A stretch of 64,000 bases of DNA from Cellulomonas chengniuliangii (GTDB taxonomy: Bacteria > Actinomycetota > Actinomycetes > Actinomycetales > Cellulomonadaceae), in assembly GCF_024508335.1 (NCBI RefSeq), contig NZ_CP101988.1, positions 2,852,001 to 2,916,000 on the forward strand. Reading direction: 5' to 3'. Shown piece after piece: positions 40,490-42,931 of the stretch (position 1 is the first letter of the stretch; every line of letters starts with the position of its first letter). The notes under the pieces are model-generated. The model was given only the letters and a program-made list of their open reading frames with translations. It made no database searches and was not told where the DNA came from. A program made the position numbers and the translations under genes.

Positions 40490-41146
40490 TCAGCGGATGA
40501 GGCCTCGGCGCAGGCCGATCGCCACCGCCTGGGCGCGGTCGGCTGCCCCGAGCTTCCGGAACAGCCGGCGGGCGTGCGTCTTGACGGTGTCCTCGGAGAG
40601 GAAGAGCTCGGCGCCGATCTGCGCGTTCGACCGTCCGTTGCTCATGCCGACGAGCACCTCGACCTCGCGCTTGGTCAGGGCGACCTCCTCGAGGCCCCCA
40701 CGCTGCGTCGGGGCGTCCACCACGGGCTCGACGGCGGCCTCGGCGCGCATCGACGTGGAGGCGCCGGTGGCGGCGACCGAAGGGCTGGCGAGCACGTGCG
40801 CGGCGACGGCGGACAGCTCGGCGCGACCCACGTCGGGCGCGAGGAACCCGCGCGCGCCGAGGGAGATCGCCCGGTCCAGCGCGACCTCGTCACCGGGCAC
40901 CGCGAGCATCACGATGGTGGCGGACGGCGCGATCGCGCGCAGCCGTCGGATCGCCTCGACCGGGCCGGGCCCGGGCAGGTGGGCGTCCAGCAGCACGACG
41001 GTGGGCGGGATGCGCCGCGCGAGGGCGGTGAGCTCCTCGGCCGTCTCCGCCGACCGCACGGGGGCGAGCGAGGGAACTCCGAGGGCCGTCAGGACCAGGC
41101 GCTCACGCACCACGGTCGAGCCGTGACAGACCACGACTCCAGCCAT
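40490..41146 (-). CDS. bldM: BldM-like atypical response regulator
   Basis: This 218-residue LuxR-family regulator has a C-terminal HTH (TKREVEVLVGMSNGRSNAQIG, continuing to THARRLFRKLGAADRAQAVAIGL) closely resembling that of Streptomyces BldM, as I recall it. Neighbourhood agrees: bldM, whiD, groES and guaB are also grouped in Streptomyces. The receiver domain keeps an Asp in LLDAHLPGPG but lacks the acidic pair (VVCHGS replaces the DD) and the signalling Lys (GFLAPD), so it is probably not controlled by ordinary phosphorylation. AAGGAGG precedes the ATG. A sigma-28/WhiG-type promoter lies about 45 nt upstream. No kinase gene is nearby. Confidence 0.85.
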   Translation of the reverse strand: MAGVVVCHGSTVVRERLVLTALGVPSLAPVRSAETAEELTALARRIPPTVVLLDAHLPGPGPVEAIRRLRAIAPSATIVMLAVPGDEVALDRAISLGARGFLAPDVGRAELSAVAAHVLASPSVAATGASTSMRAEAAVEPVVDAPTQRGGLEEVALTKREVEVLVGMSNGRSNAQIGAELFLSEDTVKTHARRLFRKLGAADRAQAVAIGLRRGLIR

Positions 41147-41297: not shown

Positions 41298-42266
41298 TCA
41301 GGAGCACACGGCCGTCACCTCGGCGAGCACGCCGGCGAACGTCCTGGCCCGGTGGACGGACCGCCCCAGAGGGAGCGCCCGCGCGGCGTCGTCGTCGGCG
41401 AGCACGACGAACTGGGGAAGCTCGGGCTGGGCGTCCGCGAGCGCGGCGATCACCGCGAGGTCGGGGGCGCCGAGCTCGCTGACCATCACGACCGCCGCGG
41501 GACGGGTCATCGCGGCGATCTCCATCACCCGGTGCTGCTCGACGGGACCGGCGACGATCCGCGCGTCCGCGCCGTGGCTGGCCAACGCCGCCGCGAGCAC
41601 GTGCAGCACCAGTGGCCGCGGCTCGCCGGGCGCCGCCAGGAGCAGGACGACCTGTCTCCCCGCGACGTGCGCGTGGGCGAGGGGCGCGGTCCGGGCGCGC
41701 AACCCGGCGAGGACCGAGTCCACGACCAGGGCGTCAGCGTCCTCCCCCGGCCGCGCGAGCACGGTGCGCGCCGCGAGACCGGCCCGGACGGGCTCGACGA
41801 GGTTGGCCCACCACCGCTCGTAGTCCTTCTCGGGTGCGGCGAGCAGCCGTCGGCAGGCGCCCTCGTCGCCGCGCAGCGCGGCGTCGATGACGAGTGTCGG
41901 CGTCGCCCTCGAGCGCTCGTCCACGCCCGTCCCGGGCACCGAGGCGAGCCGTGGCCGGGGCGTCGGATCGCCCTCCTCCGCGTGGAGGTCCGTCTCGCGG
42001 GCGACCCGGGCCGCCTCGGAGGGAGCCACCCCGTCGAGGGTGAGGCCGCGCATCACGAGCAGCCGGGCGACGTCGTCGCCGGTGTACCGGCGGTGGGACC
42101 CCGCCGAGTGCTCGGACGGGCCCAGCCCGTAGCGGCGGTCCCAGGTGCGCAGCGTCGCGGGCGCCACGCCCAGCCGACGTGCCACCGCCGCCACGGTGAG
42201 GGCTGGTCCGTCGCCGGGAGACGCCGTGATCGGCGTGGGCGCCGAGGGGTCTCCGTCGGTCGCCAT
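41298..42266 (-). CDS. MerR-family regulator with degenerate B12-type domain
   Basis: This 322-residue regulator has an N-terminal MerR helix-turn-helix (TVAAVARRLGVAPATLRTWDRRYGLGPSEHSAGSHRRYTGDDVARL). A helical region follows, then a C-terminal flavodoxin-like domain (AGRQVVLLLAAPGEPRPLVLHVLAAALASHGADARIVAGPV) in the position of the cobalamin-binding domain of CarH/LitR. The DxHxxG B12-ligand motif is missing, so cobalamin binding is unlikely. It lies between the bldM-like and whiD-like genes. The ATG at 42266 is preceded by a good -35/-10 pair that would start the mRNA at the ATG. An upstream in-frame codon at 42314 is not used. Confidence 0.87.
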   Translation of the reverse strand: MATDGDPSAPTPITASPGDGPALTVAAVARRLGVAPATLRTWDRRYGLGPSEHSAGSHRRYTGDDVARLLVMRGLTLDGVAPSEAARVARETDLHAEEGDPTPRPRLASVPGTGVDERSRATPTLVIDAALRGDEGACRRLLAAPEKDYERWWANLVEPVRAGLAARTVLARPGEDADALVVDSVLAGLRARTAPLAHAHVAGRQVVLLLAAPGEPRPLVLHVLAAALASHGADARIVAGPVEQHRVMEIAAMTRPAAVVMVSELGAPDLAVIAALADAQPELPQFVVLADDDAARALPLGRSVHRARTFAGVLAEVTAVCS

Positions 42267-42272
42267 GAACCG

Positions 42273-42302
42273 ATTGTGCACAAGGCGTGGCGCGGTTGTC
42301 AC
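42273..42302 (-). promoter_or_regulatory. merR-like gene promoter with 20-bp element in the spacer
   Basis: GTGACA (-35, 42302-42297) and CACAAT (-10, 42278-42273) are 18 nt apart, and the ATG follows 6 nt after the -10. The element ACAA-N4-GTGGCGCGGTTGT (plus strand 42280-42299) fills the spacer. The arrangement is that of MerR-family operators. Confidence 0.55.
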
Positions 42303-42371
42303 GCGCGCGTCCAACTCGTCACGCGAACGGTCGATGGCCCTGCCTGCGCTGAAGCGATTGCGAACAGGGAC

Positions 42372-42400
42372 TTGAACAACTTGTGGCGCGGTTGTAGCGT
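42372..42400 (+). promoter_or_regulatory. whiD-like gene promoter with 20-bp element in the spacer
   Basis: TTGAAC (42372-42377) and TAGCGT (42395-42400) are 17 nt apart. The element ACAA-N4-GTGGCGCGGTTGT (42376-42395) fills the spacer and repeats the copy in the merR promoter. The outer ACAAC/GTTGT bases form an inverted repeat. Confidence 0.55.
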
Positions 42401-42414
42401 CTCGATCCGTACCC

Positions 42415-42449
42415 AGTTGACCGACTTTGTTGAAGACCTAGTTGACCGA
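42415..42449 (+). repeat. AGTTGACCGA direct repeats in the whiD leader
   Basis: The 10-mer AGTTGACCGA occurs at 42415-42424 and again at 42440-42449, between the predicted whiD transcription start and its ATG. The role is unknown; a regulator site is possible. Confidence 0.6.
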
Positions 42450-42515
42450 ACGTCATGTGCGGTCGGGTCAGGCGCACCGCCGCCACTGACCCGGACACCC
42501 AGTCGAGGAGGACCA

Positions 42516-42806
42516 ATGGCCGAGATCTCGCGTTTGCCCGGACCCGTGATGGACCTGTGGGAGTGGCAGTTCGAAGGCGCCTGCCGCGACGCGGACGAGA
42601 ACCTCTTCTTCCATCCCGAGGGCGAGCGGGGTTCGGCCCGTCGGCGTCGCGCCGAGGCCGCGAAGGCCATCTGCGCGACCTGCCCGGTGATCCAGGAGTG
42701 CCGCGAGCAGTCCCTCGCCGTGCGCGAGCCCTACGGGGTGTGGGGCGGGCTCTCCGAGGACGAGCGCGCGGCGATCCTCGCCCGGCCGTCCCGCAAGGCG
42801 ATCTGA
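42516..42806 (+). CDS. whiD: WhiB-family iron-sulfur regulator, WhiD/WhiB3 type
   Basis: This 96-residue protein has the four cluster-ligating Cys residues (Cys23, Cys53, Cys56, Cys62) of a [4Fe-4S] WhiB protein. The glycine-rich turn is GVWGGLSEDE (about 74-83) and a short basic tail follows. LPGPVMDLWEWQ and FFHPEGERGSARRRR resemble Streptomyces WhiD and mycobacterial WhiB3, and the location next to the bldM-like gene and groES agrees with that identity. Such proteins bind the primary sigma factor and respond to redox or nitric oxide. GAGGAGG precedes the ATG. The promoter carries the same element as the divergent merR-like gene. Confidence 0.9.
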   Translation: MAEISRLPGPVMDLWEWQFEGACRDADENLFFHPEGERGSARRRRAEAAKAICATCPVIQECREQSLAVREPYGVWGGLSEDERAAILARPSRKAI

Positions 42807-42870: not shown

Positions 42871-42931
42871 CCTCCGCACATGAGGAAGCCCCTCCCGGCT
42901 TGGCCGGGAGGGGCTTCCTCATGTGCGGAGG
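42871..42931. terminator. Very long bidirectional terminator hairpin
   Basis: A perfect 29-bp inverted repeat (42871-42899 with 42903-42931) with only 3 nt between the arms lies between whiD and the convergent groES. There is no T-tract. Confidence 0.85.

Follow-up and report, generated by a model that had tools for sequence, protein, structure and literature searches.

A conserved promoter element between divergent merR-like and whiD-like genes of Cellulomonas chengniuliangii as a predicted CarH-type operator

Why would one short element lie in the spacers of two promoters that point away from each other, one towards a merR-like gene and the other towards a whiD-like gene? The question arises from 64,000 nucleotides of Cellulomonas chengniuliangii DNA (NZ_CP101988.1, positions 2,852,001 to 2,916,000; this whole stretch is called the window below), in which the gene order is bldM-like, merR-like, whiD-like, groES. 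The genes concerned are:

40490..41146, minus strand: bldM-like response regulator gene adjoining merR (Pfam Response_reg and GerE)
41298..42266, minus strand: merR-like gene, 322 aa, with a MerR winged HTH (Pfam MerR_1, 2e-14) and a degenerate CarH-type C-terminal domain
42516..42806, plus strand: whiD-like gene, 96 aa, WhiB family (Pfam Whib, PF02467, 1.4e-24)

WhiD is an iron-sulfur developmental regulator. The name was given here from resemblance and from the bldM-like neighbour, by synteny with Streptomyces; a bldM-like match is also present at many distant merR-whiD loci. In the named relatives C. cellasea and C. timonensis, the merR proteins are 84% and 83% identical to that of the window. 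whiD and groES converge, and the DNA that separates them contains a hairpin (42871-42931) whose 29-base arms pair perfectly around a loop of 3 bases; it is probably a two-way terminator for both.

A preliminary description of the locus had reported two copies of the element, and ACAANNNNTGGCGCGGTTGT is indeed present at 42280-42299, where it reads ACAAGGCGTGGCGCGGTTGT, and at 42376-42395, where it reads ACAACTTGTGGCGCGGTTGT. The consensus given there, ACAA-N4-GTGGCGCGGTTGT, describes two real sites with one surplus base; its correct form is ACAA-N4-TGGCGCGGTTGT. Searched with up to 3 mismatches, the 21-mer of that description has these two sites as its sole matches in the window (0.07 expected; none of 100 shuffles contained two). 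They are also the only perfect matches of the corrected pattern in the 3.57-Mb genome, with one further place at 2 mismatches. When up to 3 mismatches are allowed genome-wide, the real pattern gives 8 matches versus 17 for a reversed-pattern control, and the loose matches are therefore noise.

The promoter hexamers had been read correctly as well. The predicted promoter of whiD consists of TTGAAC (42372-42377), a 17-bp spacer and TAGCGT (42395-42400), the latter far from the -10 consensus; that of merR, on the minus strand, consists of GTGACA (42302-42297), an 18-bp spacer and CACAAT (42278-42273). Because CACAAT stands only six bases ahead of the ATG at 42266, the merR transcript is probably leaderless. 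The two copies of the element point the same way on the DNA and the promoters diverge, so the orientation of the element relative to transcription is opposite at the two promoters. The promoters and the 11-bp units that we propose as operator are arranged as follows (sources are cited here and below for the parts of their text that were accessible):

42266..42302, minus strand: predicted merR promoter GTGACA-18-CACAAT, with a predicted leaderless start at 42266
42277..42287, plus strand: merR-side unit TGCACAAGGCG, overlapping the merR -10
42288..42298, plus strand: merR-side unit TGGCGCGGTTG, within the merR spacer and extending into the -35
42350..42360, plus strand: upstream unit TGAAGCGATTG, placed 5' of unit 1 at a distance of 23 bp, or some two turns
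42371..42400, plus strand: conserved 30-bp whiD promoter element with TTGAAC-17-TAGCGT, conserved in the family and the one place in the genome that profile R1 matches (E 1e-7)
42373..42383, plus strand: predicted operator unit 1 at whiD, TGAACAACTTG, overlapping the -35 and containing the TnnACA of the CarH unit (PMC9304148)
42384..42394, plus strand: predicted operator unit 2 at whiD, TGGCGCGGTTG, taking up the remaining spacer

The pairs are thus TGAACAACTTG followed by TGGCGCGGTTG at whiD, and TGCACAAGGCG followed by TGGCGCGGTTG at merR. The whiD leader further contains a direct repeat, ACC(C/T)AGTTGACCGA, at 42411-42424 and 42436-42449, 25 bp apart.

Within Cellulomonadaceae, 120 of 121 genomes contain merR (E <=1e-20), and the region upstream of whiD was collected at 67 loci, which represent 21 of the 25 genera. 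The preliminary description had suggested a search of related genomes for the element upstream of both genes. Its whiD side answered without exception: the 30-bp element is present at 67/67 loci, of which three (L050, L062, L063) were fetched by the pattern itself and the others by the position of merR, and CTTGAACAACTTCTGnnnCGnTTGTAGnGT is matched at 16 to 24 of its 24 fixed positions. The counts given here and below leave out second copies of genomes already included (L044, L095), a locus at a contig end (L092), loci without whiD (L040, L284, L286, L287) and loci with 10-base placeholders (L093, L094, L108). Calculated from 42 distinct sequences whose spacer is 17 bp long, the information amounts to 21.8 bits in the spacer, 10.1 in the -35 and 7.5 in the -10, or 1.28, 1.68 and 1.25 bits per base, respectively. 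In a plain promoter, conservation of the spacer is not expected. At 19 of the 67 loci (L074, L079, L088 and others) the promoter block ends 10 bases 5' of the whiD start codon, and there the whiD mRNA may be leaderless too, given this short distance.

The merR side is more restricted. The merR start with a -10-like box of the leaderless CAnAATCGnnnCATG type at a fixed distance was recognised at 56 of the 67 loci, and a unit occupies the merR spacer in exact register at 15 of 67: 7/7 in the genus of the window, 3/5 in g6, 3/4 in g9 (the fourth g9 locus has the unit with one mismatch) and 2/10 in g20. Within the family, the claim that the MerR-like protein controls its own gene is thus supported in part, by these 15 loci. 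Sites at both promoters are a trait of Cellulomonas and of some members of three related genera; family-wide, the whiD site is the general one.

Does the element follow the linked merR gene outside the family? We scored further loci with a weight matrix built from the family, and drew the line at 10 bits after the scores were seen; the best of 20 shuffles of any order-level locus reached 7.2 bits. In the order, the merR protein is matched in 85/248 genomes (E <=1e-15) and whiD in 146/248 (E <=1e-17). A hand-chosen sample of 80 whiD upstream regions comprised 40 beside merR, 30 from genomes without a merR match and 10 extra whiD copies from merR-bearing genomes. At first scoring, 32/40 merR-linked regions exceeded 10 bits versus 1/30 without merR. 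One locus filed among the latter (L215, 3.3 bits) has merR beside whiD according to a profile search, and its transfer changes the counts to 32/41 versus 1/29. Unlinked CarH-like relatives occur in two of these 29 genomes (G318, G338), and the element is absent from both. The extra unlinked copies of whiD carry it in 4 of 10 cases, all from one genus, and lack it in 6.

At class level the merR profile matches 91/197 genomes (E <=1e-18). Among the best 29 merR loci besides that of the window, 26 have a whiD match beside merR and many a bldM-like match beyond. In other orders, more than 10 bits were reached by 19 of 24 merR-linked loci in a first set, which excludes two (L261, L262) whose genomes had been counted at order level, and by 13 of 18 (16 genomes) in a further set, where 0/20 loci without linked merR and 0/2 unlinked extra copies did so. 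Pooled outside the family and with extra copies left out, 64/83 merR-linked loci lie above the line versus 1/49 without; Fisher's test gives 4e-19 for this analyst-chosen sample, ignoring kinship.

Several families hold both states. In f3, f13, f15 and f36 a score above 10 bits goes with a linked merR and a lower one with its absence, save for G257 (f13), above the line without merR, and for the linked loci L173 and L215 (f3), L181 (f13), L186 and L197 (f15), below it. Family f17 offers no contrast, since all its loci, including the 4 merR-linked ones, are below 10 bits. Altogether 19 of the 83 merR-linked loci fall short of the line; by eye, several of them have tandem units and others none. 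In G257 (L207, L246) the element scores 29 bits, no related merR was found beside whiD, and the best profile match elsewhere in that genome is to the HTH only; the operator there perhaps reflects a recent loss of merR or serves another binder. Two f45 genomes (G374, G458; L315-L318, L328) have two merR-whiD pairs each, and one unlinked whiD copy (L328) has tandem units, TGCGTAGGTTG followed by TGAACAAGTTG, despite a score below 10 bits. In family f37, which we guess to be Streptomyces, 0/5 whiD loci have the linked regulator or the element. Since the two genes adjoin, joint inheritance or loss of one locus may account for some of the co-occurrence.

What shape does the presumed operator have? 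Outside the core, the half-unit TGRMNCGVTT was counted 62 times in the 67 family regions (1.2 expected), 5 times at the 40 merR-linked loci of other families (0.4 expected) and once at the 29 loci without linked merR (0.7 expected). The 62 copies occur on both strands and their flanks are little conserved; the units outside the core are asymmetric. The spacing of units strictly upstream of the core was analysed with an 11-base unit matrix at 117 loci, namely 132 minus 15 whose core scored below 10 bits. Head-to-tail pairs at 11 bp number 23, followed by 5 at 12 bp; shuffles, with slightly different masking, give about 0.3 at the 11-bp spacing. The 23 include several from closely related loci (L270-L273) as well as three pairs on the merR side (L013, L014, L016). 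Clear upstream tandems are seen in L096 (TGAATCGGTTC, TGAATCGGTTC, TGGATCGGTCC) and L277 (TGAACAACTTA, TGAACAAGTTT). The 30-bp core by itself suits three arrangements about equally, namely an inverted repeat (p 0.009) and direct repeats of 9 bp (p 0.0135) or 11 bp (p 0.016); plain 11-bp direct repeats stand in the core of L175 (TGAATCGGTTG, TGAATCGCTTG) and L324 (TGCACAAGTTT, TGAACAAGTTT). In L270-L273, L281 and L288 the opposite strand bears another tandem pair, just 5' of the whiD -35.

Judged by sequence, the protein itself combines a MerR-type HTH with a C-terminal domain of the B12-binding type, as CarH/LitR proteins do: profile A3, built from 25 relatives, matches the CarH chains 3whp and 5c8d across both parts. 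Taken alone, the protein of the window has a weak B12-binding match (PF02310, 0.034) and scores below the cut-offs of the NCBIfam CarH equivalog (39.1 bits, cut-off 400) and of the BldC model (22.7 bits, cut-off 77). At E <=0.1, PF02310 is matched by 10 of the 25 profile members and PF02607 by 4. In the alignment, the window protein lacks both the EH and the ExH motif, which we take to be the histidines of the CarH B12 pocket. The 16 aligned rows from Cellulomonadaceae have EH in none and ExH in one (L035), and six further rows of the same order (f3, f8, f13) are without both. All of the other 20 rows keep both motifs: 17/17 whiD-linked orthologs from other orders and 3 from the same order (f2, f5). 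With the pocket degenerate in the lineage of the window, the signal there is probably no longer B12.

Regarding the range of targets, the whiD site is the only match of profile R1 in the genome of the window at E <=10, and the 7 genomes of the genus give one site each (E <=1). One full site per genome fits a local switch. A genome-wide regulon was considered and set aside, as R1 returned the whiD site alone; however, R1 evaluated 150 out of some 500-600 first-look candidates and did not pick up the copy at merR, so weaker targets may exist elsewhere. The 2-mismatch match (L003), between genes for a LacI-type regulator and sugar transport, was dropped as a candidate, having no R1 profile match.

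The element and its conservation, its association with merR, the repeats at 11 bp and the CarH-like domains can all be read in the sequence; from them we infer the following course of events. The CarH-like protein would bind head-to-tail 11-bp units of approximately TGRMNCGRTTN or TGAACAACTTN. At whiD these units would cover the -35 and the spacer, and at merR the -10 and the spacer, the latter in Cellulomonas and in some members of three related genera. Occupancy of the core promoter would most likely repress whiD, and merR too where its own promoter has units; a signal, or loss of the CarH-like protein, would release the repression. That such a protein, encoded divergently from whiD, binds in this manner and most likely represses is the reading we consider likely on the whole. 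The broader part, direct control of whiD by a MerR/CarH-type protein, is very probable because the element recurs in many actinomycete families where merR and whiD are adjacent. The control of whiD predicted in the preliminary description gains from the same distribution: the element accompanies a divergent merR far beyond the family, is absent from 48 of 49 examined loci that have no merR beside whiD, and has been kept at some unlinked whiD paralogs.

The same description expected the protein to twist the DNA and so activate both genes, in the classical manner; as we formulate this model, a symmetric dimer on ACAAC-N10-GTTGT would remodel the spacer. The ACAA/TTGT arms are centred in the whiD spacer, the core resembles its own inverted repeat at the p value given above, and the protein does have a MerR HTH. 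However, classical promoters have 19-20-bp spacers, and their regulators are symmetric dimers on palindromes (PMC5859096, accessible part), whereas the spacers at this locus measure 17 and 18 bp, the units outside the core are asymmetric, with little-conserved flanks, and run head to tail 11 bp apart, some cores (L175 and L324, for example) are plain direct repeats, and the C-terminal domain is CarH-like. This part of the description is not supported, and we regard classical activation as quite improbable. Unlikely, though deserving some weight, is the possibility that the CarH-like protein binds as proposed yet activates whiD, for instance through a sigma contact at the -35. The poor whiD -10 would suit an activator, and BldC, a MerR-like protein with direct repeats as its sites, acts as a repressor and also as an activator (PMC6428758, accessible part). 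The same text reports that BldC represses whiD in Streptomyces venezuelae, the site here spans the -35 and the entire 17-bp spacer, and CarH is described as a repressor at such sites (PMC9304148). Repression of whiD is thus the most likely outcome by analogy with CarH and BldC.

Could BldC itself be the binder of the element? Its targets in Streptomyces coelicolor include the region of the whiD promoter, and its sites are direct repeats (PMC5859096); two BldC genes lie above the cut-off in the genome of the window. The idea is weakened because BldC exceeds the cut-off in 16 of the 29 genomes that have no linked merR, yet the element is absent from all 16, while G257, the one of the 29 that bears the element, has no BldC above the cut-off. 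Moreover, the BldC repeat, AATTNNNN(C) in the accessible part of PMC5859096, contains an AATT that is missing from the unit of the element. We give BldC very little credence. Nor do we expect, in any but the smallest measure, that the block is just a conserved whiD promoter serving RNA polymerase or WhiD/sigma without any MerR protein. The -35 and -10 do belong to the conserved block, but the spacer is per base as conserved as the -10 and less so than the -35, and the block is missing from all but one of the 49 whiD loci without linked merR. A BldM site was also sought; the nearest match to the published TCACcCgnncGgGTGA (PMC4125116) is 42319-42334 with 3 mismatches, and 17 such matches in the window versus 11 expected are about what chance provides.

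A more daring extension can be put forward tentatively, as something we find rather less than probable. An ancient switch could extend through the class, in which whiD-linked CarH-like proteins with intact B12 pockets keep whiD repressed from tandem 11-bp units and release it upon a change in B12, perhaps in light. Cellulomonas would then have kept operator and protein, lost the pocket and rewired the switch to another signal or to constitutive action. Should the distant members bind B12, a vitamin or light signal would be tied to WhiD. In either case, the predicted local switch in many actinomycete families offers a directly testable controller of whiD. Upstream control of WhiD has been described for Streptomyces (PMC5859096, PMC6428758). 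In the accessible open literature, including parts of PMC4255298, PMC5859096 and PMC6428758, we found no description of a CarH-like gene beside whiD or of such an operator, and likewise none of a B12 or light signal linked to WhiD.

Among known systems, the BldM/WhiI response regulators share with this locus the adjacent bldM-like gene, but the element does not resemble the BldM site (PMC4125116, as far as accessible). Classical MerR regulators (MerR, SoxR, BmrR) share the HTH fold and a site in the -35/-10 spacer, and differ in spacer length, in the head-to-tail units outside the core and in the C-terminal domain. BldC of Streptomyces is similar in using a MerR-like HTH on direct repeats and in controlling whiD (PMC5859096, PMC6428758); it differs in having 68 residues, no C-terminal domain and a large regulon, compared with 322 residues and one full-length site per genome here. 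CarH/LitR, the B12-dependent photoreceptor repressors, also join a MerR-type HTH to a B12-type C-terminal domain. According to the accessible part of PMC9304148, CarH acts as a repressor at operators built of tandem repeats of 11 bp (nnnnTnnACAn), which overlap elements of the promoter, including the -35. TnnACA is present in unit 1 of the window and unit 2 departs from it, while the 11-bp head-to-tail spacing is seen outside the core. Unlike CarH/LitR, the system presented here has whiD rather than carotenoid genes as its target, and a protein that lacks both histidine motifs of the B12 pocket and scores 39 bits against the 400-bit cut-off.
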